Shown one piece after another: positions 7,118 to 41,502 of a stretch of DNA of 64,000 nucleotides; position 1 is the first letter of the stretch; each line of letters begins with the position of its first letter. A model generated the notes under the pieces. The model did not search any database and had not been told where the DNA came from. It worked only from the letters and a program-made list of their open reading frames with translations. The stretch is from Chloroflexota bacterium (GTDB lineage Bacteria; Chloroflexota; Anaerolineae; Anaerolineales; Villigracilaceae): the NCBI GenBank assembly GCA_016223135.1, contig JACRPQ010000006.1, forward strand, positions 186,001 through 250,000. Reading direction: 5' to 3'. Position numbers and translations under genes: made by a program.

Positions 7118-8015
7118 CGAAGGCTCCCAATTTTCTTGCAATCAGCAGGTAAACAATCATGATGATGACGGGTCCCATCGTCATGGCGGCGGCGAGGGGA
7201 ATGTTTCCCGCCGTGCCTTGATACGAATAGACCGCCTGCCCGATGAAAAATTTAGAATTGCCGAGCGAAAGCGGCACGATGAAATCGCCCAGCGTCAACG
7301 AAAAGGTGAAAATCGAACCCGCCACCACGCCCGGAAACGCCAGCGGCAGGATCACCGTTCGGAAGGTCTGAAACGGCTTTGCGCCCAAATCGCTGGAGGC
7401 TTCGAGCAGGGATGAAGGTACGCGTTCCAGCGCCGTTTGAATGGGGATGATCATATAGGGCAGCCAGATATACACAAAGACGATGAACATGCCAATCGGC
7501 GAAAGCGCCAGCGAGGAGCCGCCAATGCCGGGCAGGCTCAACAGCCAGTTCAGCGCCCCGTCGAGATGCAGAAGTCTGATAAACCACGAGAGGATGCCCT
7601 CCTGCGCCAAAATCAACTTCCAGGCATACACGCGCACGAGGTAACTCGACCAGAGCGGTATGGTCACGGCAATGATGAGCCAGGTCTTCAGGCGGGGCGA
7701 GGCGAACTTGGCGATGTAATAGGCAAGCGGAAAGGCAATCAGCGCATCGGCAACCGTCACTGCCGCCGCCATGCTTGCCGTGCGGGCAAAAATATCGCGG
7801 TTGGCAGGCTCGAAGATTTGCGCATATGTCCGCAGCGTAAACTCACGGACAATCAACCCCGTGAACTCTTCGAGGTAATAAAAACTGTTCAGCAGCAGGA
7901 TGAACAAAGACCCCAGATAAACGACCGTCATGTAGAGCATCGGCGGTCCGAGCAGGAGCGCCAGAACGAGACGCGGACGTTGGTATAGAAACGTGGAAAG
8001 GCGCTGGAGCATCAC
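7107..8015 (-). CDS. potB: polyamine-type ABC transporter permease PotB
   Basis: 302 residues with six hydrophobic helices and an EAA motif ([21 protein letters not shown]). It forms the heterodimeric channel with PotC. Its ATG overlaps the potA stop by 4 bp (ATGA) and its own end overlaps potC, so A, B and C are made as one unit. Confidence 0.93.
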
Positions 8016-9052
8016 GAACCTCCCACTTCACGGATATGTTCCTTTTTCCAGTGCAGGCGCACCGCCTGACCCTTGACCTTCAGCACGTCCATGGAGGTGG
8101 TTTTGAGGTTTTGTTCCACCACCACCAGGTCGCCGCCGCCGTTCAGTTCGACAAGATAACGGGTGTAGAGACCAAGATAAATCACGTCGCGCACCACGCC
8201 GTCGGCGCTGTAACTATCCGCTTCGATGTTGGTATCCATGGTCCCCAAGTGAATCTTTTCCGGACGGATGGAAAAACGAATCTCGCGTCCCGTGATGCGT
8301 TTTGCCACCTCGCCGCTCACCAGGTTGGAGGTTCCCACAAAGCCAGCCACAAAAGCGGTGGCGGGATGTTCGTAGATTTCCGCCGGCGTGCCGACCTGCA
8401 CGATTTTCCCCTCGTTGAATACCGCAATGCGGTCGCTCATGGTCAACGCTTCTTCCTGGTCGTGCGTGACGAAGATGAAGGTAATGCCGACGCGTTTTTG
8501 AATCGCCTTGAGTTCCACCTGCATCTGCTGGCGCAGTTTCAAGTCGAGGGCGCCGAGCGGTTCATCGAGAAGCAAAACTTTGGGGTGATTGATCAAGGCG
8601 CGGGCGAGAGCGACGCGCTGGCGTTGTCCGCCGGAGAGTTGGGAAGGTTTGCGGGCGGCGTATCCTGTCAGTTGAACGAGCTCGAGCATTTCGTCCACCC
8701 GTTTCATCCGCTCAGGCTTCGGCACGCCCTTTACCATCAGTCCATAGGCGATGTTATCGCCCACGCTCATGTGCGGGAACAAGGCGTAGTCCTGAAAGAC
8801 CGTGTTCACGTCGCGCTCATAGGGCGGCAGGTTGGAAACGTCCTGCCCGTAAAGATAGATATGCCCCGAACTGGGCACCTCGAATCCAGCAATCATTCGC
8901 AGACAGGTGGTCTTGCCAGAGCCGGAAGGACCGAGCAGGGAGAAAAATTCGCCGTCTCGAATCTCCAGGTTGGCTTGATCCACTGCCTTTACATTGCCGA
9001 AATATTTGCTGACGTTTTCGAACCGAATGGCTGATTGTGTCTGACCGGTCAT
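8012..9052 (-). CDS. potA: polyamine-type ABC transporter ATP-binding protein PotA
   Basis: 346 residues. Walker A is GPSGSGKTT (41-49), the signature is [15 protein letters not shown], and Walker B is [12 protein letters not shown], with the switch histidine in [11 protein letters not shown]-terminal TOBE-like regulatory domain (about 245-346) is typical for PotA/MalK-class ATPases. It energises import through PotB/PotC. It is separated from potD by 74 bp that contain a perfect hairpin. Confidence 0.95.
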
Positions 9053-9083
9053 GTTGTTGAATAACTCACTGATTGAAAAGGGA

Positions 9084-9109
9084 CGTCAGGCGGGTTTCCC
9101 CGCCTGACG
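9084..9109 (-). promoter_or_regulatory. Intra-operon hairpin between potD and potA
   Basis: A perfect 11-bp stem CGTCAGGCGGG / CCCGCCTGACG with loop TTTC. There is no long U-run behind it on the transcribed strand, only CCCTTTTC. Such structures after binding-protein genes commonly protect the upstream message from 3' exonucleases, giving more binding protein than membrane parts. This role is inferred. Confidence 0.7.
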
Positions 9110-9126
9110 CCGTATGTAAAATGGGA

Positions 9127-10341
9127 TTAGCGTCCGCCGATGACGGCAACGTAATTCGTGACCCATTCGTGGTAAGGCACACACTCCGTAGCGGGATCGT
9201 TATCGCCGCAATCCGCGGTGGGAGTACGCCACCACCAAATCTTGTCGAAGTCGTTCAAACCGTTGTTCACACATCCATCGGGACCGAGCAGGTCGTTGCC
9301 ATCGCACGCATCCAAACGGACGGGGATGTTCTGGAACCATGCCGCCAAATCGCCCTGCACCTTGGGGTTGAGCGACCATTCCATCCATTTGTACGCGCAG
9401 TTGGGATGCGCGGCATCCACATGCAGCATGGTCGTATCCGCCCAGCCGGTCGCGCCTTCCTTCGGAACCACTTTATCAATCGGCGCGCCGCCGAATTTCA
9501 ACAGGTTCGCCTGGAAGGGCCACGAGCTGGAAGCCGCCACGCCTTCGTTGGTGAAGTCGTCCATCTGGATGAAGGCATCGTGCCAGTAGCGGTTGATCAA
9601 CTGACGCTGCTGGCGCAGCAGGTCAATCGCCGCGTTGAACTGATCGCGGTTGAGGGCGTAGGGGTTGGTAATACCCAGTTCGGGGCGGTGATACATCAAG
9701 TAGAGCGCCGCATCCGCCACATAGATGGGACCATCGTACGCCTGAATGCGTCCCTTGTTCGATTTGCCGTCCGGCAGTGTCATTTCCTCGAACACCACGT
9801 TCCAACTATCGGGCGGCTGATCGCCGAACACATCGGTGCGGTACATCAAAATATTCTGCCCGGAGGAATACGGCACGCCGTAATGTTCCGCCACACCGTC
9901 GCCATCCGTATCTACGGTGTGCCAGGGGGCGTTCTGCAAACGCGAGTCGATCTTGCTGTAACTGGGGATGAGGTCAATGTTGATTGGCTGGACGCGCTTG
10001 GCGGCAATCAAACGATTGGAAGCGTCGCCCGAAGCGGTCACCAGATCGAAGCCGCCTTCGTTCATCAGCGCAACCATCTCGTCCGAGGTGGCGGCGGTCT
10101 TCACACTCACAATACAGCCGGTGTCCTTCTCGAACTGCGTCACCCAGTCATACGCCGGGTCGGTCTCGCCGCGTTCGATGTAGCCCGCCCAAGCGACAAT
10201 CGAAAGCGCGCCTTCCCCCTCACCCACTTGCTTCAACGGTCCACCGGCGGCTTCCTCGCCGCCGCCCGTTCCTGCGCACGCCGAAAGGGCAATGCTTGCC
10301 ACCATCAGCAGGCTCACCATTATGAACCACTTGGATTTCAT
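9127..10341 (-). CDS. potD: polyamine-type substrate-binding lipoprotein PotD
   Basis: 404 residues from the ATG at 10341, preceded by AAAGGAGAG; the longer frame start lacks a signal peptide layout. A hydrophobic signal ends in the lipobox LSAC, so it is membrane-tethered, as expected in a monoderm. The body is a type 2 periplasmic-binding fold (LSIVAWAGYIERGETDP at the start, DGVAEHYGVPYSSGQNIL mid-protein), matching PotD/PotF-like proteins. It is the first gene of potDABC. The real ligand could be another small cation. Confidence 0.9.
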   Translation of the reverse strand: MKSKWFIMVSLLMVASIALSACAGTGGGEEAAGGPLKQVGEGEGALSIVAWAGYIERGETDPAYDWVTQFEKDTGCIVSVKTAATSDEMVALMNEGGFDLVTASGDASNRLIAAKRVQPINIDLIPSYSKIDSRLQNAPWHTVDTDGDGVAEHYGVPYSSGQNILMYRTDVFGDQPPDSWNVVFEEMTLPDGKSNKGRIQAYDGPIYVADAALYLMYHRPELGITNPYALNRDQFNAAIDLLRQQRQLINRYWHDAFIQMDDFTNEGVAASSSWPFQANLLKFGGAPIDKVVPKEGATGWADTTMLHVDAAHPNCAYKWMEWSLNPKVQGDLAAWFQNIPVRLDACDGNDLLGPDGCVNNGLNDFDKIWWWRTPTADCGDNDPATECVPYHEWVTNYVAVIGGR

Positions 10342-10459
10342 ATCTCTCTCCTTTGGGAATTTTTGGATTGGCAAAGAACAAACCGATGGAAAACAATCCC
10401 TGCGCCGCCACCTCCTTCCTCAAATCGAACCGCAAGCCTTGTTACGCATAAACAGGCTT

Positions 10460-10465
10460 ATTATA
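10460..10465 (-). promoter_or_regulatory. Candidate -10 box of the pot operon
   Basis: TATAAT on the minus strand, inside TTATAATAAG, about 120 bp upstream of the potD start. No clear -35 was identified, so this is tentative. Confidence 0.4.
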
Positions 10466-10571
10466 AGAAAATACAGGGTAGCGTCAATCAGCAATTTCCG
10501 ATAGGGACGCGCTGCGCGCCGCTTCTTTCCCAAACTGACGGCTGCTTCTGTCTTCAAGCCTTTTCCTCCCC

Positions 10572-11393
10572 TCAGCCGCTCGCCAGCATCACCATCGCCC
10601 GGAAGCCGTTATACGCCGACGCCATTTCCTCCGCCTCCAGCGAAACGCGCGTCCCATCCCGGCGCGTGAAAGGAATGCGCGAAGCCCTGTCCGCCATATC
10701 GGACGTGAAAAACTCCACCGTCACGCGCAGCGGCGTATCCAGCACGAACGGGTCCGGCACATCGCCTTCCAGCAAACGGGACACCGCCCGCGAAGCCGCA
10801 TCCGAAATCATCCCTTGCGTCACAGCCGGCGGCAGACACTCCGCCGCAAAACGTCCACTCGCCTGCTTGACGACCGCCGTTTCCAAATCCCCTAACAACT
10901 CCACGATTTGACTGCACGCTGTCTGATCTCCTGTTGCCATGACCACCGGGACTCCGAAATGACCCGCCAGCGCCGCATTCAAGCCATATTCCCCTGTCAA
11001 AATGTCATTCAGCCACACATTCGCCACCGTCTTTGATGACCACGTATGGTCGAGAACCGCGTCTGGCGAACCGTTGCGGGCGTGATAACCGACAAAGAAC
11101 ACGGCATCCACCGTCTCGTCAATGCCCTGCATCATCGAAAACGGACTGGGAGAGCCGCTATTCAACCTCGCGCGTGGATCGAGTTCCTCGATCAGAATGT
11201 TCGACCCGTTCCAATGTCCATCCGCCACGATGACCTCGTCTGCGCCCGCTTCCATTGCCCCGCGAACCGCAGCGTTCACGTCCTGCGTCATCAAGCGGCG
11301 AAAACGCGCATACTCTGCATGTCCCGGCGTAACCTGGTCCCACGTCGTCACCCCTGTCACTCCCTCCATATCGGTTGCAATTAGAATTTTCAT
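10572..11393 (-). CDS. M55 D-aminopeptidase (DppA-like)
   Basis: 273 residues. The N-terminal KILIATDMEGVTGV holds the metal-binding Asp-x-Glu of family M55, and GADEVIVADGHWNG and FFVGYHARNG carry further metal-ligand residues of the DppA zinc decamer. DppA cleaves D-Ala-D-Ala or D-amino-acid peptides. In bacilli it sits with dipeptide permeases; here the nearest transporter is the polyamine-type operon upstream. Identity is secure, substrate inferred from the family. Confidence 0.9.
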   Translation of the reverse strand: MKILIATDMEGVTGVTTWDQVTPGHAEYARFRRLMTQDVNAAVRGAMEAGADEVIVADGHWNGSNILIEELDPRARLNSGSPSPFSMMQGIDETVDAVFFVGYHARNGSPDAVLDHTWSSKTVANVWLNDILTGEYGLNAALAGHFGVPVVMATGDQTACSQIVELLGDLETAVVKQASGRFAAECLPPAVTQGMISDAASRAVSRLLEGDVPDPFVLDTPLRVTVEFFTSDMADRASRIPFTRRDGTRVSLEAEEMASAYNGFRAMVMLASG

Positions 11394-11761
11394 GGCTTCT
11401 CCTCAAAACGGGCTTGTTAGCAGGGTATCCACTGCAAAAACTTGCCACAGCGACGCCGAGAGCGCGGGAACGTTCTCCAACGTTCCCTGCGCATCTGATA
11501 ATTTCCAAACATGAATTACCCCCGAACGTCCCGAAGGTTTCTTGAGTTCGGCTTTGATTTTGACCAAAACCCTTCGACAGGATCAGAGAGTGTTTTGAAA
11601 TTCATTTTCCAACCACAGATGAACACAGATAAATTGGATTTAGGGTGATTTCATCACGTTTTTCATCAAAATCAGCGTTCATCTGCGTTTATCTGTGGCG
11701 AATCTCGCTTTATAAAACACACTCTCTCAGGACAAGCCTTCGGGACAGTGCGCAACATCAG
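11394..11761. repeat. Nested palindromic repeat region
   Basis: No gene seen. At least two nested inverted repeats occupy about 11550-11755. The innermost is CCACAGAT..AGATAAA (from 11612) against TTTATCTGTGG (to 11698). Outside it are AGAGAGTGTTTT (11586) and AAAACACACTCTCT (to 11728), then the flanks CCCTTCGACAGGAT and GGACAAGCCTTCGGG. The words GACCAAAACC and GTGCGCAACATC recur near 51003-51036. Confidence 0.75.
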
Positions 11762-32555: not shown

Positions 32556-32640
32556 GTGAAAAACCCTAAATTTTGGAAATTCTCAAATTCACGAAGGGAA
32601 AGCAGACCTTTAGGGTTTCTGCACGGTAAAGAATTGCCGC
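32556..32640. repeat. CCCTAAA-type dispersed repeat
   Basis: Contains AAAAACCCTAAA, TTGGAAATTCTCAAAT and CGGTAAAGAA in the same order as at 50946-50998, plus the inverted half ACCTTTAGGGTTT. The right part overlaps the 3' end of the nucleotidyltransferase gene, whose last residues are thus repeat-encoded. Confidence 0.8.
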
Positions 32641-33776
32641 TGAAGCAAGATCAAGAGAATTCTTTTGATGATTTGCAGGGGATAAATGATGCGCCCATAC
32701 CAAACCATTTTCCCGCCGCCAATGCCATAATACAATCTCAACCACCACTCAGAGGGAGAAGAAAAGGTACGGCGAAGGAATTCGAATACCCCAACATGCC
32801 GCCAGTCAGAAAAAGAATGCTGGGGCCAGCCGCAAGGATATTGATTGACCCCTTGCGGCGAGGAACTTTGACGGAGGGGTATCACTACTTTCAAATGCGC
32901 GGGAAGCGGGGTAAGGTTGTAAAAAACCTCCAGTTGATTGAGAAGAACGGAGTCGAATCGTTGCAAAGAAGCCCAATCCAGAATTTCTGCATTCTGTTCC
33001 ACCAGACTGACCATGTCTGCCATCCATTTGAGCGGCAGCGGCTTGGCTTCTGTTGCAGCAAATAAATGCCGCCTGAGATGGCGGGAGAGATAACGAAGTG
33101 TGTTCAAAGGGGTGGAAATGTAAATGGCATTCCCCACACTGGCGAGGGGGTGAGCAGCGTCAAGGTTTTTGAATTCTTCGTATGTGTGATCGCGGGTAGA
33201 TGGAGTGTGCAGTTCCACTTGAACGCGAATGCCGTCGGTGAGAGGGGAATCCATTTTGAGTTCGCTGGGCAGCAGGTCTGAGGTCCGCGAAGCATGAGGC
33301 GGGTAAAGAAAAAATCCTGCGTCCGTAAGTACATTCACGGCAAGCGGCATGTCTTTGCGTTCGAGCAGCAGGTCAATATCGCTGACCGGGCGCAGAGCAG
33401 GCTCAGGGTAGTATTGCAGTGCAAGCGCCAACCCCTTGAGAAGCACCGCGCGGATGCCCGCCTGCTCAAACAGCGCATTGATCTTTTTGAGTACCGTCAA
33501 GTGTGTGTGGTTAAACAGGCGGTGACGCAAGTGCAGTCCGCGCAAGGTTTGTTCAACACCGGCAGGCAGGGAAATGCCGGCAGTATGGACGTGGTGCCAA
33601 AGCAAAGGCGCCATGCCATGCAGTTCGGCTTGCGACGGCAGAATATGCCAGGCATCGAAACGCTCGACCTGATTGGCTAACCGTTCATAAAAAACAGGAT
33701 GCCCGGCGGCACGAGCGCACAACGCAAGGAGGCGATACGTCGAATCTATGGATTCGAAACGGTTCGAGTTATCCAT
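32610..33776 (-). CDS. nucleotidyltransferase-family protein (NTP_transf_5-like)
   Basis: 388 residues. The central LKGLALALQYYPEPALRPVSDIDLLLERKD holds the family core with the metal-binding Asp pair (SDIDLLL), as in pol-beta-fold NTP_transf_5 proteins. These occur in lasso-peptide and PqqD/HprK-like gene sets, where the reaction is only partly known. The start overlaps the kinase gene by 31 bp, so it is the last gene of a tightly coupled four-gene unit. The 3' end lies in a dispersed repeat. Confidence 0.82.
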   Translation of the reverse strand: MDNSNRFESIDSTYRLLALCARAAGHPVFYERLANQVERFDAWHILPSQAELHGMAPLLWHHVHTAGISLPAGVEQTLRGLHLRHRLFNHTHLTVLKKINALFEQAGIRAVLLKGLALALQYYPEPALRPVSDIDLLLERKDMPLAVNVLTDAGFFLYPPHASRTSDLLPSELKMDSPLTDGIRVQVELHTPSTRDHTYEEFKNLDAAHPLASVGNAIYISTPLNTLRYLSRHLRRHLFAATEAKPLPLKWMADMVSLVEQNAEILDWASLQRFDSVLLNQLEVFYNLTPLPAHLKVVIPLRQSSSPQGVNQYPCGWPQHSFSDWRHVGVFEFLRRTFSSPSEWWLRLYYGIGGGKMVWYGRIIYPLQIIKRILLILLQRQFFTVQKP

Positions 33777-34585
33777 TGTGCGGCAGATTCAATATCGGAA
33801 TATGTCAACGAGTACACAGCAACCTGCCGGGCGAGGCGGGCGGCGGCGCTCATACCACCGTCAGTGAAGTTGCGGGCGTTGACCAGACACTGCATAAGCT
33901 GGAATAAGGCTTCTGCCGGCGTGAGCCGCTGAACACGGAGAGGCGCGCCGGCTGTGTATTGAGGGAAGAGAAGAATGCGCGGCGTAATGCTCGCGCAAAC
34001 GGCGGCGGGATTGAGCAGCGTCGGCGGGACCCACGCGCTGCCATCATCGAGATGGAGTATGTTGTTTCCAGCCGCCAAATTCCGCCACACAAAGGCTGAA
34101 CCTTGTTTGAGGATGACCGAACGACAAAAACCGCTGATTTCTTCTCCATCCAAGGGGAGTGAAATGACTTCATCGGTGAGATATTGCATTCCCGCAGCAG
34201 TGAACCATGCCGCCAGGGTGGATTTTCCGCTGCCGCTTTTTCCACACAAAATCACTCCCCGTTCACGATACCCCAGAGCGGCAGCATGGAAGATGAGATG
34301 CGTCACTGAAGCGCCGTTTAAGCGGATCAGGCTGTCTTGCATCAGAAATTGCAGCGCCTGCGCGAGGCTGACATTCAAAAGCAAATCACTGCTGTTGACT
34401 GAAACGGAAACGCCGCTTCCATCAATGGCAGTGATTTTATAGGTTGCCAGCAGCGATCCAGTTTTGCCCAGACAATGCGCAAAGTGCGTTTCGATTGCTC
34501 GGCACACCTGCGGGCAGGTGGATGAAACACAAATCGTATTGCCCGCAAAGTGAATGAAGCGGTCGCTGGAGGAACAGATGCTCAC
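33746..34585 (-). CDS. HprK-like serine kinase-related protein
   Basis: 279 residues. The P-loop GKSGSGKST (about 119-127) follows FHAAALGYRERGVILC, the layout of the HPr kinase/phosphorylase C-domain, and LTDEVISL has the acidic residue after it. The HPr-recognition and regulatory N-domain of true HprK is absent, and there is no ptsH nearby. Related kinases in RiPP clusters phosphorylate a serine of the precursor peptide. Its start overlaps the PqqD-like stop by 4 bp. Confidence 0.82.
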   Translation of the reverse strand: MSICSSSDRFIHFAGNTICVSSTCPQVCRAIETHFAHCLGKTGSLLATYKITAIDGSGVSVSVNSSDLLLNVSLAQALQFLMQDSLIRLNGASVTHLIFHAAALGYRERGVILCGKSGSGKSTLAAWFTAAGMQYLTDEVISLPLDGEEISGFCRSVILKQGSAFVWRNLAAGNNILHLDDGSAWVPPTLLNPAAVCASITPRILLFPQYTAGAPLRVQRLTPAEALFQLMQCLVNARNFTDGGMSAAARLARQVAVYSLTYSDIESAAQWITRTVSNP

Positions 34586-34854
34586 CTGGTTGTCAATGCG
34601 CCCTGATCCATCAAAGTTTGAATGGCGGCAGGGACATCGTTTCGGATGTCATTGGCAGCATCCGCGTACGCCGCGCTTAACAGTTCTACGATCTCATCCA
34701 CTGTGCGCTTGCCGTCGCACAATTGCCAGATGAGCGCGCTGGTTTGATTGCCGTGAATGATGATATTGCGGGATGGATGGAGAAGAACCATTTCTCCATC
34801 CATCATCTCGATTTGAAATCCATCAACCGCTACGGGAACAATTGCATCGCGCAT
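34582..34854 (-). CDS. PqqD-like peptide-binding (RRE) protein
   Basis: 90 residues. The PqqD layout is visible: a beta hairpin (EMMDGEMVLLHPSRNIIIHGN), then TSALIWQLCDGKRTVDEIVELL with the typical A/S-x-x-I-W-x-L-C-D-G-x-x-T motif, and a helical end. PqqD-fold domains bind leader peptides and deliver them to modifying enzymes. Here it sits directly between a Tat-exported protein gene (17 bp) and an HprK-like kinase, so a leader-recognition role is plausible but unproven. Confidence 0.85.
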   Translation of the reverse strand: MRDAIVPVAVDGFQIEMMDGEMVLLHPSRNIIIHGNQTSALIWQLCDGKRTVDEIVELLSAAYADAANDIRNDVPAAIQTLMDQGALTTR

Positions 34855-34871
34855 GGTGGAACATCAACCCG

Positions 34872-35357
34872 CTAACAACCGCCAGTATCACTCATAAACG
34901 TTTGAACGTCACTGCCGGAGCCATCGGCAGGGTTATCGAAACTCCAAGTCACTGAAATAATGTCGCCAAAGTCGAAGGCGCCAGGAGTGGTATCAACATT
35001 GATGGTCAGGCTGACGGAGCCTTTCCCATCGGTTACCACTGTTCCGGTCAGTGCAGCCGGTGAAGTAACCGTGGGAGGAGTACCGCTGGTGGTAATGTTA
35101 TAGCGCATCACAATTCCCGGTGTGGGAGGCGTAATGGTGGCGGTGCTGATAAGGGGGAAACAGTAATTCGCAGCGGGGTCAGATGCGCCGGCGGTCACTG
35201 TATGAATGCCGGCGGAAGTTTGGGCGTGGACAGGCAAAACGCCCATTTGCAAGTCGGGTTTGCTCCACGCCGGGGGCAGGGTGGACAAGGCAGCGGCGCC
35301 AGTGGCGGCAGCCAGCAATTTGAGCGCTTCGCGGCGGGAGAGTTTCTGTGACGACAT
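34872..35357 (-). CDS. Tat-exported protein of unknown function, candidate substrate of the downstream enzymes
   Basis: 161 residues. The twin-arginine signal is LSRREALKLLAAATGAAALS (residues 5-24), with cleavage possible after VHAQ. The mature part is beta-rich, Thr/Ser/Gly-rich and Ig-like (GTVVTDGKGSVSLTINVDTT), and ends in DTGGC with a terminal cysteine. A second cysteine is near residue 66 (NYCFPL). No enzyme motif. It is the first gene of the PqqD/HprK-like/nucleotidyltransferase unit, so it may be the modified substrate. This is inference from gene order. Confidence 0.65.
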   Translation of the reverse strand: MSSQKLSRREALKLLAAATGAAALSTLPPAWSKPDLQMGVLPVHAQTSAGIHTVTAGASDPAANYCFPLISTATITPPTPGIVMRYNITTSGTPPTVTSPAALTGTVVTDGKGSVSLTINVDTTPGAFDFGDIISVTWSFDNPADGSGSDVQTFMSDTGGC

Positions 35358-35884
35358 GGCAATACCTCAAGGAAAGATGATTTATTTTGTCGATTTTATC
35401 ATACCGAGTTCTTGCCAGTTACAACATCCTAACAGCAACAAAGCAGTTGTTCATCCAAAAATTATGGTTCTACCGTGTTAACAGGACAATCATTTTCAAC
35501 CATAAAGGACACAAAGGTCATGAAGTTCCGACACTTTCTTCACAGCCCCCATATGGTTTTCTTATTTGATCTCTTGCATAAGTCAGCCGACGTTAGAGAA
35601 CGTCTCTTACGCAAAGGCGTATTGTGTGCTCTCTAGCGCACTTTTGCAAGAGGTCTATTATCGCTCGACGGAATCAATTTTTGTACACGGATCGCACGGA
35701 TGATACGGAATTCTCCGTGAAAAACAGAAAGAAATCCGTTCATTCCGCGAAATCCGTGTACAAAGAAGGCTCGCATTCAGACTTTGAGAAAGCCATACAC
35801 AACCCCATGAAAACGCTTGACGCGCGCCAGAAAAGCGGTACAATCCATTTCGATATTTATCGAATTAAATTTCAGGTGCAAGAG
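35358..35884. repeat. Divergent intergenic region with two palindromic elements
   Basis: No gene seen in 527 bp. The element at 35571-35652 has ends CTCTTGCA / TGCAAGAG, an inner GACGTT / AACGTC, and words of the ACTTACGCAA family. The element at 35681-35763 has perfect 12-bp ends TTGTACACGGAT / ATCCGTGTACAA and an A/T-rich middle. A TACAAT box at 35839-35844 may drive the regulator pair. Bases 35506-35530 hold a degenerate AAAGGACACAAAGG word. Confidence 0.75.
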
Positions 35885-36445
35885 ATGAGTACACAAAATC
35901 CCATGTTGGAGTTTGCCAAAGCGATGGCTTCAGTTGAGCGGTTGAGGCTGATCGGCGCACTGGTGCGCGGACCTGCCACGCAGGCGGAAGTGGCTGCGCA
36001 GGTGCACCTTCCCGTGCGGGAAGTGCATGACCATCTTGCCTTTCTGGTGTCAGTAGGCGCGGTGCGGGAGGAGGAGGGACGGTATCGGGTGGACGAAAAG
36101 TCCATCGAAGCGCTGGTCAAGAGTCAGTTTGAGGGGAAGCGCGCGGAGCCTGATTTGGTCGAGAGCGAGTCAAACGATGTCCGCAAAATCCTGAGAGCGT
36201 ATTTGAAATCCGATGGAACGCTGGCACATATCCCAACGGATAGCCGAAAATTGCGAATTGTCCTGAAGTTCATCGTTGATGTATTTCCTTTCGACGCTAC
36301 CTTCACGGAAAAGGAAGTGAATGCCATCCTGCGCCGTTTTCATGTGGACACCGCCGCTCTGCGCCGCTATCTTGTGGATGAGGGCTTCATGGCGCGGGAG
36401 GGCGATGGGTCGAGGTATTGGCGCGTGAAACTGGAGGCGGCATGA
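35885..36445 (+). CDS. ArsR-type HTH plus DUF2087 regulator, copy 1
   Basis: 186 residues from the ATG at 35885; the longer open frame is repeat DNA. N-terminal winged-helix (RLRLIGALVRGPATQAEVAAQVHLPV, about 16-80), then a C-terminal DUF2087 domain (FTEKEVNAILRRFHVDTAALRRYLVDEGFMAREG, about 135-186). DUF2087 often follows HTH domains, and its role is unknown. The downstream paralogue has exactly the same length and overlaps its stop (ATGA). Confidence 0.85.
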   Translation: MSTQNPMLEFAKAMASVERLRLIGALVRGPATQAEVAAQVHLPVREVHDHLAFLVSVGAVREEEGRYRVDEKSIEALVKSQFEGKRAEPDLVESESNDVRKILRAYLKSDGTLAHIPTDSRKLRIVLKFIVDVFPFDATFTEKEVNAILRRFHVDTAALRRYLVDEGFMAREGDGSRYWRVKLEAA

Positions 36446-37002
36446 GCGAGGAATTGGTCGCCTTCTTCAAGGCGCTGGCAGATGCCAATCGTCTCAAAAT
36501 CGTCGGCTTGCTGGCGGAGAAATCGTACAGCGTGGAGGAACTTGCCGCGCTGTTACAACTCAAACCTTCGACGGTTTCGCATCATCTTTCCAAACTATCA
36601 GAGGCGGGGCTGGTTCAGGCGCACGCGGAGAGCTATTACACCGTCTATCAATTGAACAAGGAAACGCTGGAAGAAAAATCGCGCAGGATGTTCTCACAAA
36701 CGGAACTCTCCAGCGCGGCGGCAGATGTGGATGCAGACGCTTACGACAAAAAGGTCATCCGCGATTACTCGCGTCCCAATGGAAGTTTGAAAACCATCCC
36801 TTCCCAACGCAAGAAACTTGAAGCGATCCTGCGCCATGTGGTAAAAGCCTTTGAGGTCGGCAAGCGTTACAGCGAAAAGAGGATGAACGAAATACTCTCA
36901 CAGTTTCATGAGGATACCGCCACCCTGCGGCGTGAATTGGTCGGCGCGGGGCTGATGGCGCGCGAAGGCGGGGGCGGCGAATACTGGCGGACGGAAAAAT
37001 AA
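36442..37002 (+). CDS. ArsR-type HTH plus DUF2087 regulator, copy 2
   Basis: 186 residues from the ATG at 36442, with GGAGGCGGC in front. The HTH is clearer than in copy 1: FKALADANRLKIVGLLAEKSYSVEELAALL and STVSHHLSKLSEAGLV. The C-terminal DUF2087 has YSEKRMNEILSQFHEDTATLRRELVGAGLMARE. The two copies may heterodimerise. No metal-binding ELCVCDL motif of classical ArsR is visible. Confidence 0.87.
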   Translation: MSEELVAFFKALADANRLKIVGLLAEKSYSVEELAALLQLKPSTVSHHLSKLSEAGLVQAHAESYYTVYQLNKETLEEKSRRMFSQTELSSAAADVDADAYDKKVIRDYSRPNGSLKTIPSQRKKLEAILRHVVKAFEVGKRYSEKRMNEILSQFHEDTATLRRELVGAGLMAREGGGGEYWRTEK

Positions 37003-37049: not shown

Positions 37050-37712
37050 CTACTTCATCTGCTCACGATTGACAATTCCCCTCTGCCAGGCATACACCGC
37101 CACCTGCGTGCGGTCTGCCAGGTGCAGTTTACTCAGGATGTTGCTCACGTGTCCCTTGACCGTGTTTTCGCTGATGACGAGTTTCTCGGCAATCTGGCTG
37201 TTGGTCATTCCTTTGGCAATCAGGCGCAGGACGTCCAGCTCACGCTCGGTTAGTTCCGTAAACAGAGGTTCTTCACTTTCGCCGCGCAGGTTTTGCAAAA
37301 CGCGCTCCGCCACCAGCGGATGCAGAGTCACTTCATGGCGCACGGCGCGCTGTAACACCTCCACCAGCTTTTCCATTTTCATATCCTTGAGGATGTAGGA
37401 AGTCGCCCCTGCCTTCAATGCCGGGAAGATATGCACGTCCTCATGATAGGAGGTCAATATCACCACCTGCGTGCGCGGACTAATCTTTTTGATTTGGCGC
37501 GTCGTTTCCACGCCGTCCATGCCAGGCATGATCAGGTCCAACAAAACAACATCGGGAATCAACTCCGCGACCATCTTGACCGCCTGCTCGCCCGACTCCG
37601 CCTCCCCCACCACATCGAACTCCTTGAGCGTTTCGAGATAGGAGCGGATGCCGTTCCGCACCACTTCGTGATCGTCCACAATCAAAATACTGATGACATT
37701 GCTTTTCGCCAT
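37050..37712 (-). CDS. NarL/LuxR-family response regulator
   Basis: 220 residues from the ATG at 37712 (AAAGAGG upstream). Receiver domain with SILIVDDHEVVRNGI (acidic pair), phospho-acceptor Asp in VVLLDLIMPGMDGVE, and the conserved Lys in ILKDMKMEKL. The C-terminal LuxR HTH is LTERELDVLRLIAKGMTNSQIAEKL. It is 13 bp downstream of the Reg_prop kinase gene and is surely its partner. Confidence 0.95.
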   Translation of the reverse strand: MAKSNVISILIVDDHEVVRNGIRSYLETLKEFDVVGEAESGEQAVKMVAELIPDVVLLDLIMPGMDGVETTRQIKKISPRTQVVILTSYHEDVHIFPALKAGATSYILKDMKMEKLVEVLQRAVRHEVTLHPLVAERVLQNLRGESEEPLFTELTERELDVLRLIAKGMTNSQIAEKLVISENTVKGHVSNILSKLHLADRTQVAVYAWQRGIVNREQMK

Positions 37713-37725
37713 ATTCGCCTCTTTC

Positions 37726-40700
37726 TTAATCTTTCGCCGGCACCTGCACAATGACCTTGGTACCTCGCCCCGGCGCGCTCTGCACCTGTACCGAGCCGTG
37801 GACACTGCCCACCCGCTCGCGAATCGAACGCAGACCCAGCCCCTGCCCTCTCAGGTTCATGTCAAAACCGCGCCCATCGTCTGATACGCACAGTTGCAGA
37901 GTTCCGCCATTATAGACCAGAGAAACATCCACGCGGCTTGCATGACTGTGACGCGCCACATTCGCCAGCGCCTCCTGCGTAACGCGGTAAATTGCCTGCT
38001 CGATGTTGAGCGGCAGACGCCGCTCCCTTTCGAGGGTCAGATTCACCTTGATATCGTTGCGGTTTTCCCATTCATAGACATATTCGCGCAGCACAGCCGC
38101 CAGTCCCTTTTCCTGCAGAGCCACCGGGTAGATCTCCTGCACGAGAAAAGTCAATTCCTGAATGACATCCGAAACGAGGTTTTCCGCCTCGTGAAGATGC
38201 AGCGCCGCCTTCTCGCCATCGCCGTTCAACATACCGCGCGCCGCGCCCAGCTGGGCGAGGGCGGCAAAGGCTTTTTGCTTGGCGCTGTCGTGCAGGTCGC
38301 GCGCGAGGCGGTTTCGTTCTTCCATCACCGCCAGGTCCTTGGTCTGTTCGAAAAGCTGCATGTTCGCAATCGAAATGGCGGCGCGCTGGGTCAGCGCCGA
38401 AAACAGCCGCACTGTGTCATCTCCAAGCAGGTGAGGTTTTGTAAAGCCGACGTTGAACACTGCCACCACCTTGTTATCCACGCTGATGGGCAAATGTACA
38501 AACGAACGAATGCCCTCGGCAATCAGCGCTTCGCGGAGCTGCGGACGGAATTCGTTCAGTTCGATTTGGCGGACAATCACCGCTCGACCTGTATCCAGCA
38601 CATTGCCCACAACGCCTTCCCCCCGCGCAAATTCCATGACTTGAAGAGTCTGCGGCGAATAACCCCGGCTGACGCGCGGAATGATGCGCGCCCGCTTCTC
38701 ATCCCAGGCAAGTACCATACTGCGGTCTGCATTAAGCACGTCCACCGCCACATCCACCAGAGTCTGGAAGACCTGGTTCAAACTCACATTGCGAAGGATG
38801 CGTTCGTCTGCCTGATAGAGCGCTTGAATCTCTTGATTGCGTTTTTCGAGCGCGCTGGTTCGTTCACGGACCAAACGTTCCAATTGACGGTTGCGATCCT
38901 GAATTGCCCTTGTGCGCAGACCAATTCCCACCGCCACCACCCCCGCCAGCGCAACAACCAGAAACAGCCGGAACCAAGCCGTCTGCCAAAAAGGCGGAAT
39001 CACCTTCACAGAAATGCTGAGTGGAGTTTCGCTCCAAACGCCGTTGCTGTTGGCGGCTTTCAGGTGGAGGGTATATTCGCCGCCCGGCAGGTTGGTGTAA
39101 CGCCCGTTGCGCTTCATGCCGATATACTGCCAGTCCGGGTCGAAGCCTTCCAGGTAATAGGCATATTGATTCTTGCCAGGCTGGTTGTAATTCAGTGCAG
39201 CGAATTCAAACTCCAGAGAGTTGTGGGGCCATTCCAACACCACACTGGACAACGTCGAAACACTTGCATTCAATGCCAACGGCTGACCGTCCTGCGTCAG
39301 TGACGTCAACACCACTTGCGGCGGATACGGATTATCGAGAACGCTCAAAGGATGAAAAACGGTCAGCCCGTTGACGCCGCCAAAATAGAATTCTCCCTCG
39401 CGCCCTTTGGCAAAAGCCGCCGCGTTGAATTGATTGCTCTGCAAGCCGTCGCCGGCGTCGAAGTTGCGAAACGTCTTCTTCTGCGGGTCGAAGCGCGAAA
39501 TGCCGAAGTTGGTGCTGAGCCATAGATACCCCAAATCGTCCTCGAGGATGCCATACACCACGCCGTTGGGCAATCCGTCTTTTTCCAGAAAATAGGTGAA
39601 TGTCTCGGTGACGGGATCGAACAGATTCAAGCCGCCGCCGTTCGTCCCAATCCACAAACGACCCTGGGAATCCTGGTACACATCAAGGATGGACTCGTTG
39701 CTCAACGACTTTTTGTCATTGGGGTCGGCGTGATATTGCTTGAACGTTTGCGCCGCGCGGTCGAAGCGGTTCAAGCCGTTCTCGGACGTGCCAACCCATA
39801 AATAGCCGTCGCGATCCTCGTAAATCACACTCACCGAGGAACCGCTCAGGCTGGTCGGATCGCCCACGCGGGGGGCGTAATGTTTGAACGTGCCGCTGGC
39901 GCGATCCAGCAGGTCGAGCCCCGCCACGGTTCCCACCCAAACGTTGTTTGCGCTGTCCACAAAGACCTCCTGCACTGTGTTGGCGCTCAGGCTGGCAGGA
40001 TTTTGCGGGTTGCGCTGATAATGGGTAAAACGGGAGGTCCGCCGGTCGAAACGATCCAGTCCATTGGCAGTGCCAATCCATAAAATGCCGTCCTGATCCT
40101 CGTCAATCGCATAGAGGATATTCGAGGCGATGCTGGCAGGACGCCGCTCGTCGTACTGATAGCGGATGACTTGCCCCGTAGACCAGGTGAGGCGGTTCAA
40201 GCCCCCGCCAAAAGCGCCGATCCAGGCGTAGCCCTGCGAATCGACATGGATGGGAAAAATCAAGTTCCCGCTCAATGAGTTAGGGTCTGAAGGAACATGC
40301 CGGTAATAGGCAAAATTGTCGCGCAGGCGGTCATACTTGTTGACGCCGCCGCCGTACGTGCCAAACCACAACACCCCGCCGCGATCTTCATGGATGGAAA
40401 GAATAAAATTATTGCTCAGACTCTGAATGAAAGACGGGTCGTTGACATAATGAATAAAACGTCCTCCCGCGCGGCTCAAACGATCCAGCCCGCTGCTGGT
40501 GCCAATCCACAAATTGCCGCCGCTGTCCAAATGCAAGGTGTTGACACGGTTGCCGGCAATGCTTTGCGGGTCATTATCCGAATGGATGAAGCGCTGAAAC
40601 TTGCCTGAGGCAGGATCAAAGCGGTTCAAGCCGAACCAAGTACCAACCCACAACGTCGAATTGCCCGCGTCCAGAATGGCGGTAATGTGATCGTTGCTGA

Positions 40701-41502
40701 TGGAGGTTACATCCTCCGGGTTGTTTTGGTAGGCGGTGAAAATCCCGCTCTGCGGGTCGAACTGATTCAACCCGCCGGAGGAGGTGCCAATCCAATACCT
40801 GCCCCGGCTGTCCTGCAAAATCGCCGTGACGCTCTTCCCCGTCAACCCGTCAGGAGTAAGCGGATTGTAGCTATAACGCTTGAAGCCTCCGCTCTTGCGG
40901 TCGAACAATTCCAGTCCCTGCTCGGTGCCAATCCACAAGTTATCGTTTCGATCCAGGTAAAGGACATTGATGTGATTGTCGCCAATGCTGGCGGGATTTT
41001 CGCGGTCGTGACGAAACACGGCGAATGTCTCACTGCGCGGGTCGTAACGATTCAAACCGCCCTGCCGTGTGCCAACCCACAAATACCCTTCGCGGTCCTC
41101 CACTATGGCAGTAATCCAGCGGTCGCTCAGGCTGTTGGGCGAGTCAGGTTCGGGTTTGAACGTCTTGAACGTGTAACCGTCGTAGCGGTTTAAGCCGTCC
41201 TCCGTCCCAAACCACAAAAAGCCGGCGCTGTCCTGAAAAATGACATGCACCGAATTTTGCGACAATCCCTGTTCGAGACCGAGATGGTCGAAACGCGGGA
41301 CGCAGTTACAAATCTCCGGCAGGGAATTGGGGGAGATGCGGCTCGGGACTTCGGGAAGGCTGGTCGGCGCTGAAGCAGCCTCGGGCGCGGCTGGAAGCGG
41401 ATTCCCGCTCCCGCACGAAGCCAGCGTCAGCGCCAGGAAGAGTCCCAAAAGGCGGAAGAAGGTCAATTGCTTGCTTCTTCTCATACCCAAAGTATAGCCC
41501 AT
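37726..41502 (-). CDS. Reg_prop two-component sensor histidine kinase with lipobox
   Basis: 1258 residues. The N-terminus has a hydrophobic segment ending in LASC, a good lipobox. Residues ~75-690 hold about 13 Reg_prop propeller repeats (pattern DxxGxLWIGTxxGLxRFD). Then a Y_Y_Y domain (LPGGEYTLHLKAANSNGVWS, ~755-810), one membrane helix (~820-840), a coiled coil, a GAF domain (~890-1040), HisKA_3 with RDLHDSAKQKAF, and HATPase (DDGRGFD, GLGLRSIRERV). The sensing part is outside, likely detecting a carbohydrate or similar ligand. The start may instead be at 41484. Confidence 0.93.
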   Translation of the reverse strand: MGYTLGMRRSKQLTFFRLLGLFLALTLASCGSGNPLPAAPEAASAPTSLPEVPSRISPNSLPEICNCVPRFDHLGLEQGLSQNSVHVIFQDSAGFLWFGTEDGLNRYDGYTFKTFKPEPDSPNSLSDRWITAIVEDREGYLWVGTRQGGLNRYDPRSETFAVFRHDRENPASIGDNHINVLYLDRNDNLWIGTEQGLELFDRKSGGFKRYSYNPLTPDGLTGKSVTAILQDSRGRYWIGTSSGGLNQFDPQSGIFTAYQNNPEDVTSISNDHITAILDAGNSTLWVGTWFGLNRFDPASGKFQRFIHSDNDPQSIAGNRVNTLHLDSGGNLWIGTSSGLDRLSRAGGRFIHYVNDPSFIQSLSNNFILSIHEDRGGVLWFGTYGGGVNKYDRLRDNFAYYRHVPSDPNSLSGNLIFPIHVDSQGYAWIGAFGGGLNRLTWSTGQVIRYQYDERRPASIASNILYAIDEDQDGILWIGTANGLDRFDRRTSRFTHYQRNPQNPASLSANTVQEVFVDSANNVWVGTVAGLDLLDRASGTFKHYAPRVGDPTSLSGSSVSVIYEDRDGYLWVGTSENGLNRFDRAAQTFKQYHADPNDKKSLSNESILDVYQDSQGRLWIGTNGGGLNLFDPVTETFTYFLEKDGLPNGVVYGILEDDLGYLWLSTNFGISRFDPQKKTFRNFDAGDGLQSNQFNAAAFAKGREGEFYFGGVNGLTVFHPLSVLDNPYPPQVVLTSLTQDGQPLALNASVSTLSSVVLEWPHNSLEFEFAALNYNQPGKNQYAYYLEGFDPDWQYIGMKRNGRYTNLPGGEYTLHLKAANSNGVWSETPLSISVKVIPPFWQTAWFRLFLVVALAGVVAVGIGLRTRAIQDRNRQLERLVRERTSALEKRNQEIQALYQADERILRNVSLNQVFQTLVDVAVDVLNADRSMVLAWDEKRARIIPRVSRGYSPQTLQVMEFARGEGVVGNVLDTGRAVIVRQIELNEFRPQLREALIAEGIRSFVHLPISVDNKVVAVFNVGFTKPHLLGDDTVRLFSALTQRAAISIANMQLFEQTKDLAVMEERNRLARDLHDSAKQKAFAALAQLGAARGMLNGDGEKAALHLHEAENLVSDVIQELTFLVQEIYPVALQEKGLAAVLREYVYEWENRNDIKVNLTLERERRLPLNIEQAIYRVTQEALANVARHSHASRVDVSLVYNGGTLQLCVSDDGRGFDMNLRGQGLGLRSIRERVGSVHGSVQVQSAPGRGTKVIVQVPAKD

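Follow-up and report, generated by a model that had tools for sequence, protein, structure and literature searches.

A Tat signal peptide as a putative RiPP-type leader in a four-gene unit with an HprK-like kinase in Chloroflexota and other bacteria

Introduction

Why should the gene for a protein with a twin-arginine translocation (Tat) signal be coupled to genes for a PqqD-like protein, an HprK-like kinase and an NTP_transf_5 nucleotidyltransferase-like protein? The question is raised by a 64,000-nucleotide stretch of DNA (here called the window) from a Chloroflexota bacterium (Villigracilaceae; GenBank assembly GCA_016223135.1, contig JACRPQ010000006.1, positions 186,001 to 250,000 of the forward strand), in which these four genes occupy positions 32,610 to 35,357. 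We propose that the unit probably serves a leader-guided protein modification, in which the substrate's Tat signal peptide also acts as a leader of the kind known from ribosomally synthesised and post-translationally modified peptides (RiPPs), and the PqqD-type protein would be its RiPP recognition element (RRE). This proposal is built on comparative sequence analysis of the unit and its relatives.

A point of reference is provided by the linear polyphosphorylated peptides (LPPs; Popov et al., 2026) of Bacillota, whose clusters encode an RRE, an HprK-like kinase, an NTP transferase, a SipW-like peptidase and an exporter (PMC13381572). The LPP kinase, LppK, polyphosphorylates Ser3 of the core peptide (PMC13381572). 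The same source numbers the contacts of the paeninodin-type PbaA leader, in complex with its RRE, as W-15, P-12 and hydrophobic -10 (PMC13381572).

Results

All four open reading frames (ORFs) are intact and lie on the minus strand, which the initial annotation had left unstated, and their coordinates bear out the tight coupling described in an initial annotation of this DNA, with spacings of 17, -4 and -31 bp from the Tat gene through the RRE and kinase genes to the NTP_transf_5 gene. The features are as follows.

34872 to 35357, minus strand: Tat-signal precursor protein, the proposed substrate (161 aa, ending in GGC; TIGR01409; homologues beside the trio in family members; modelled body beta-rich)
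35223 to 35357, minus strand: leader/Tat signal peptide, residues 1-45 (S7 R8 R9 ... W31xxP34 ... LPVHA45); a profile of 30 leaders has full-length matches only where RRE and kinase are present, contig ends aside
35256 to 35267, minus strand: W31-S-K-P34, predicted RRE-docking WxxP motif (W-15, P-12; both residues in 92/92 leaders; numbering as PbaA W-15/P-12/L-10, PMC13381572)
35214 to 35216, minus strand: Ser48, position +3 after the AxA-rule cut AHA|QTS, predicted phosphorylation site (Ser or Thr in 92/92 leaders; by analogy with LPPs, where core Ser3 is the phosphosite)
34582 to 34854, minus strand: PqqD-type RRE, putative leader-binding adaptor (90 aa; PF05402, E 1.7e-17; best PDB match of its profile 9x8z_B)
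33746 to 34585, minus strand: HprK-like kinase (279 aa, GTG start; PEPCK/HprK fold)
34220 to 34243, minus strand: kinase Walker A, residues 115-122 (GKSGSGKS)
34172 to 34174, minus strand: kinase Asp138, candidate catalytic Asp
32610 to 33776, minus strand: NTP_transf_5 nucleotidyltransferase-like protein (388 aa; PF14907, E 1.9e-36; conserved D133, D135, E188)

Domain searches and the kinase fold confirmed the four gene identities that the initial annotation had proposed. The first gene product scored 22.9 bits with the Tat signal model TIGR01409 (TAT_signal_seq), over the cut-off of 16.7, and stayed under the cut-off of a second such model, PF10518 (17.2 versus 22.7). The host genome also encodes a Tat translocase (one TatC match, 7.4e-51), so that both the twin-arginine signal and the export machinery expected for a Tat substrate are present. 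Its body was modelled as all beta, in keeping with the earlier description of a beta-rich Tat protein ending in GGC.

The kinase is under the curated cut-off of HprK_rel_A, TIGR04352 (91.8 bits versus 200; E 3.9e-26). Its AlphaFold2 model (mean predicted local distance difference test score 90.8) shows a full-length PEPCK/HprK fold, aligns to PEPCK over 264 residues (Z 18.0, root-mean-square deviation 4.8) and, in Foldseek, matched both PEPCK and HprK chains. G118, G120 and K121 of the P-loop, as well as D138-E139, are unvaried across 21 kinases. Walker A, conserved Asp and fold together place the protein in the HprK/PEPCK P-loop kinase superfamily, and the candidate catalytic Asp, whose absence would have refuted the proposal of the initial annotation, is retained. 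D133, D135 and E188 of the NTP_transf_5 protein are likewise unvaried, in 11/11 homologues; its profile found nothing meaningful in the PDB. The RRE profile had as its top PDB match 9x8z_B, an LppB entry (E 1.3e-4), with lasso B1 and PqqD chains practically level. As had been noted before, a lasso B2 peptidase, an asparagine-synthetase-like cyclase and a radical SAM enzyme are missing among the 10 flanking genes tested (five per side), and the same genes include no dedicated leader peptidase or MsbA-like exporter. The host genome has one S26 signal peptidase match, on contig C17 and not C9.

Conservation in the Tat proteins is concentrated in the leader and at the very start of the mature protein, with sequence variability climbing from +4 onward. 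Profile matches that reached position 40 of 43 were kept (175 of 189 rows; most of the 14 others were truncated at locus ends or covered only the twin-arginine part), and these were merged by motif and first 40 mature residues into 92 distinct leaders. W-15, P-12, P-4 and A-1 were unvaried in all 92, as was the offset of 17 from the Trp to +3. Position -10 was V, I, L, M or A in 91 of them, and +3 was Ser in 73, Thr in 19 and nothing else. When a looser text pattern was applied afterwards, with Y or F admitted for W, the spacing free to vary and +3 unrestricted, there were 0 failures in 92.

A conserved motif within a signal peptide could also point to quality control of Tat export. TorD-type proteins are chaperones that bind signal peptides, and HprK enzymes can be kinase/phosphorylases; by this account the RRE would be such a chaperone, and the kinase would gate export by reversible modification of the precursor. 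The position of the motif and the possible reversibility are in its favor, yet it leaves unexplained both the Ser or Thr at mature +3 across unrelated bodies and the glycosyltransferase fusions described below, and we regard it as improbable.

Behind this uniform leader, the mature bodies fall into up to 29 groups; because low complexity was masked, each Thr-rich or very short body stands as a group of its own, so that 29 is an upper figure. The kinds of body include a beta-rich group to which the window protein belongs, one F5/8C-domain body, Thr-rich stalks and very short cores. In the shortest core, QATGQR (6 residues), Thr+3 is the sole hydroxyl residue. Such cores, found among the 15 of 92 bodies under 70 residues, and an enzyme set equal to that of LPP clusters would suit a secreted RiPP natural product, that is, an exported bioactive phosphopeptide for which the larger bodies would be long cores. 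We consider this unlikely, because 75 of the 92 bodies have at least 100 residues (up to 263), one carries an F5/8C domain, others are Thr-rich, and a genome can hold several substrates. If the leader is instead a docking site for modification of whole proteins, the mature bodies would be interchangeable cargo, and one enzyme set could serve many substrates.

How closely does the leader follow the enzymes? Among 150 relatives of the host, a strong kinase match (E < 1e-30) was found in 11, and weak matches in two more (G117, G035) were not counted as strong; the unit is therefore patchy. In 10 of the genomes with a strong match, all four genes are collinear neighbours, with contig ends cutting the Tat gene of G057 and the NTP gene of G028, both within these 10. 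The eleventh, G123, is from another family and has two Tat proteins and the three enzymes spread over about 8 kb. A leader-only profile had full-length matches in just 11 genomes, 10 of them kinase genomes (Fisher p 1.0e-13, with kinship not corrected for). Contig ends account for both discordant genomes: G018 ends inside its second leader gene, and G057 is without the start of its Tat gene. The remaining matches were partial, generally covering the twin-arginine part only. A separate scan of named genomes (43 loci, with the leader search run on 28) recovered the collinear unit in 15 Chloroflexota loci, whose genomes partly overlap with the 150 relatives.

The same scan extends the association beyond Chloroflexota. 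RRE, kinase and leader protein occur together in Desulfobulbus, Desulforhopalus and relatives (L069, L071-L073, L075), in a Hyphomicrobium (L070) and in a gammaproteobacterium (L076), with an NTP match at L069, L071-L073, L070 and L076 and none at L075. At L071, L075 and L076, and for one of two leader genes at L073, leader and kinase are encoded on opposite strands. Across the 27 genomes behind the named loci, nine had a leader match (G151-G159, of which G152-G159 fed the profile), whereas the remaining 18 had none. The Tat protein is thus a constant partner of the window-type trio inside and outside Chloroflexota, which answers the check for a conserved 5' neighbour that the initial annotation had suggested.

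Larger samples gave a similar picture; these searches scored only some of the initial candidates, at most 12 (Desulfobulbales-order kinase), 18 (398-genome) or 24 (297-genome) per genome, so that misses are possible. For 193 genomes of the order of Desulforhopalus singaporensis (G158; Desulfobulbales), at a leader threshold of E up to 1e-4, 25 had a leader, and all 25 were among the 26 with a kinase and a separate PqqD ORF (Fisher p 1.5e-30, again with kinship not corrected for). Three of the 25 had helped to build the profiles, and 22 are independent of them. The PqqD ORF lies beside the kinase in the 26, but is about 6.5 kb off in G264; the PqqD match is weak in G1047. Kinase matches were present in 64 genomes of the order, and neighbourhoods were read for 30 of these; none of the other 34 had a leader match. 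L176, L177, L179 and L180 have a longer kinase type and no separate PqqD ORF, and their genomes are without leaders. At E up to 1e-6, the leader was found only in G154 and G264 among 297 genomes of the phylum of G154, and only in G153 itself among 398 genomes of its phylum.

These distributions also bear on the possibility that the Tat gene merely hitch-hikes as a resident of a stable operon. Wider synteny is indeed common to some loci, for example with pdh genes. However, the leader genes of Desulfobulbales frequently lie on the other strand or at a distance from the trio, and still they are confined to genomes with kinase and RRE: set against 31 listed kinase genes, 27 of 67 leader genes are within 10 kb, six are on the kinase contig but 0.56-4.3 Mb away, and 34 are on other contigs, at distances that draft assemblies do not give. 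The leader was also not found in the 397 other sampled Pseudomonadota genomes. Simple hitch-hiking therefore has very little to commend it. G158 alone has 10 leader genes, one with an internal stop. In L238 (G1012), reverse-transcriptase-like fragments, recognized by eye at 7584-8093 and 10070-10354, lie between duplicated leader-protein genes and may be the remnant of a group II intron or other retroelement.

The initial annotation had drawn attention to the C-terminal GGC and had suggested looking for conserved residues near that end. A terminal Cys, in GGC or another ending, is present in 10 of 20 listed Chloroflexota-type bodies. All 10 also have a Cys at mature position 16-24, and Cys-free bodies lack both, a co-occurrence that looks like a disulfide pair. 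Most substrates outside the Chloroflexota-type bodies have no terminal Cys. That the three enzymes modify the GGC is thus hardly credible despite the terminal Cys in half of the Chloroflexota-type bodies, and we rejected it as the modification site; the conserved features are instead the leader WxxP and Ser/Thr+3.

Several loci hint at a sugar. Kinases fused to a GT2 glycosyltransferase occur at L070, L159, L160, L162, L236 and L237, all in genomes with leader proteins; in another leader-protein genome, the L076 kinase is fused to GT2 and GT25. The second kinase of G1003 (L235:2356-5529) is fused to GT2, GT25 and a sulfotransferase domain and adjoins a leader gene. L047 sits among glycosyltransferase, flippase-like and polymerase-like genes of exopolysaccharide type, as read by eye. 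The fusions and the L047 context support, and do not prove, extension of a phosphate by sugar. For kinase-GT2 fusions that have no PqqD match (L085, L087, L088, L089), no leader was found in their genomes. At L070:9128-11731, the kinase has an N-terminal DUF6065 in addition to its C-terminal GT2 domain; our literature search found no mention of DUF6065.

We also tried Thr+3 as a marker of fused kinases. For 17 of the 19 Thr+3 leaders, the trio kinase is GT2-fused (G159, G1024, G1040, G1044) or truncated at the end of a contig (G1034). The marker was rejected, because Ser+3 leaders likewise accompany GT2-fused kinases in G153 and next to the second kinases of G950, G995 and G1003, so that the pairing is clade-limited. 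A genome-level Fisher value for the pairing, computed with 20 unfused genomes where 21 are now counted, is given no weight.

Two neighbouring regions of the window complete its description. Two overlapping DUF2087 genes (35624-37002), divergent from the unit and the second with an ArsR-type helix-turn-helix, are possible regulators. Beyond them, a large sensor histidine kinase with a two-component-regulator propeller (37726-41502) adjoins a LuxR-type response regulator (37050-37805).

Discussion

Taken as leader-guided protein modification, the unit might work as follows. In the cytoplasm, the PqqD-type RRE would bind the leader at W31xxP34x(hydrophobic), and the HprK-like kinase would then phosphorylate Ser48, the Ser/Thr+3 of the future mature protein. 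NTP_transf_5 would probably extend the phosphate with a sugar or nucleotide, and in other lineages so would the glycosyltransferases fused to or beside the kinase. The modified protein would be exported by the Tat translocase and cut at AHA|Q by a housekeeping signal peptidase, so that the secreted product would bear a modified tag at its N-terminus. What the sequences and the model show is the conservation of genes and leader, their co-occurrence, the intact motifs of the active sites and the kinase fold, from which the binding, the phosphosite, the cut, the order of the steps and any glycan are inferred. The earlier suggestion that a Tat-exported protein is modified before export thus holds up as the best reading of the sequences. 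Its nucleotidylation part is only one possibility: PsmN of pseudomycoidin, the nearest homologue that has been studied and itself a nucleotidyltransferase homologue, is reported to add a hexose or two to phospho-Ser, although nucleotidylation was not excluded there (review, PMC9266682).

A number of points weigh against this reading. The unit is missing from most relatives, 139 of 150 being without a strong kinase, and the genome samples contain related genomes. The leader profile favors its own motif, so that the invariance is partly by construction; the cut site AHA|QTS was predicted by the AxA rule alone; and conservation of the +3 residue could serve export or cleavage instead. G989 has kinase and PqqD and no leader, its kinase being 240 bp from a contig end. 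Foldseek gave only weak Ig-like or adhesin-like matches for the window Tat body (best E 0.017). From the LPP system, an S3T core is not modified by LppK, versus Thr+3 in 19 of 92 leaders here, and deletion of lppN in the published host brought no change (PMC13381572).

It is tempting to speculate further that, through a combined Tat signal and RiPP leader, many unrelated exported proteins receive a phospho-glycan or phospho-nucleotide at Ser/Thr+3, by which they would be tethered to surface polysaccharide or would seed it. This general form of N-terminal tagging is a tentative idea, and we would not yet bet on it. If true, it would be a counterpart of C-terminal sorting tags, and RRE-guided chemistry would extend beyond small natural products to complete exported proteins. 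It makes a testable prediction of one residue, Ser/Thr+3, for dozens of unrelated proteins, and it would offer a function for HprK-like/PqqD/NTP_transf_5 cassettes outside Bacillota. It would also suggest a reason for the use of Tat rather than Sec, since cargo must not leave the cytoplasm before the enzymes have acted.

Our literature search, made on the listings of the accessible papers, found nothing that combines a Tat signal with an RRE and an HprK-like kinase. Term searches gave no Tat or signal peptide in the accessible text of PMC13381572, and no HprK, kinase or twin-arginine in that of PMC12710340 or PMC7470986. The DUF2282 precursors with DUF2063-type RREs (PMC12710340) are RiPP precursors that bear an export signal peptide, as proposed for our Tat proteins. 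They differ in that the signal peptide is of the Sec type and the variable leader behind it has no predicted RRE motif, and neither an HprK kinase nor a Tat signal is mentioned in the accessible part of that paper.

Alike in gene order is the TIGR04352 cassette of Rheinheimera and relatives, in which a Tat protein, a small ORF, a kinase and an NTP-like gene follow one another as in the window, although the window kinase is under the family cut-off and the Tat proteins there have an SLPARSVWA-type leader. A Tat-signal gene is directly upstream in 8/8 gammaproteobacterial HprK_rel_A-type loci (L078, L080, L081, L083, L084, L090, L091, L092; about 8500-11700), mostly followed by an RRE-sized ORF, the kinase and a weakly matching NTP-like gene. 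The leader differs from that of the window (SLPARSVWA-type in Rheinheimera and Alkalimonas), and both kinases scored with TIGR04352, those of L078 and L090, exceed its cut-off. At two actinobacterial kinase/PqqD loci (L079:14821-15726, L082:14469-16112), Tat proteins with a WAAPVIR leader lie a few kb off, possibly as a further branch.

The lasso peptides paeninodin and pseudomycoidin (PadeK, PsmK, PsmN) share with the window an HprK-like kinase, which acts on Ser there and is predicted to do so here, an NTP-transferase homologue and, as in PbaA, the W-15/P-12/hydrophobic -10 pattern. In contrast, the macrolactam cyclase and B2 protease are not among the tested flanking genes, and the lasso phosphosite is C-terminal, whereas that predicted here is near the mature N-terminus.

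The closest parallel is with LPPs, which like the window system have a discrete RRE, an HprK-like kinase and an NTP transferase, a [Y/W]xxP leader motif, a conserved N-terminus with a variable C-terminal part, and a polysaccharide-locus context; their phosphorylated core Ser3 would correspond to the predicted Ser48 at +3. LPPs and paeninodins are stated to be restricted to Bacillota (PMC13381572). There the same three enzyme types go with lasso genes or LPP precursors and no Tat protein (PMC13381572), and the three enzymes by themselves are therefore not bound to Tat; the worry, voiced in the initial annotation, that the trio might keep unrelated or lasso neighbours without Tat proteins applies to Bacillota and not to the window kinase subfamily. 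The window leaders depart from the LPP motif YxxPxVLxHQxIxFETxxS, with W in 92/92 and an LPAHA-type end in place of HQxIxFET. LPP clusters have a dedicated archaeal-type SpI (SipW-like) peptidase and an MsbA-like exporter, whereas here the host genome has the one S26 match, on contig C17, and the precursor carries a Tat signal. Because the YxxP leader is absent and neither a dedicated peptidase nor an exporter is encoded among the flanking genes, we do not file the unit as LPP. LPP substrates are peptides; those described here are mostly proteins, their genes often scattered in the genome. By analogy, the window system may nevertheless work like LPP biosynthesis, with an RRE that would guide an HprK-like kinase to the third residue of an exported product.

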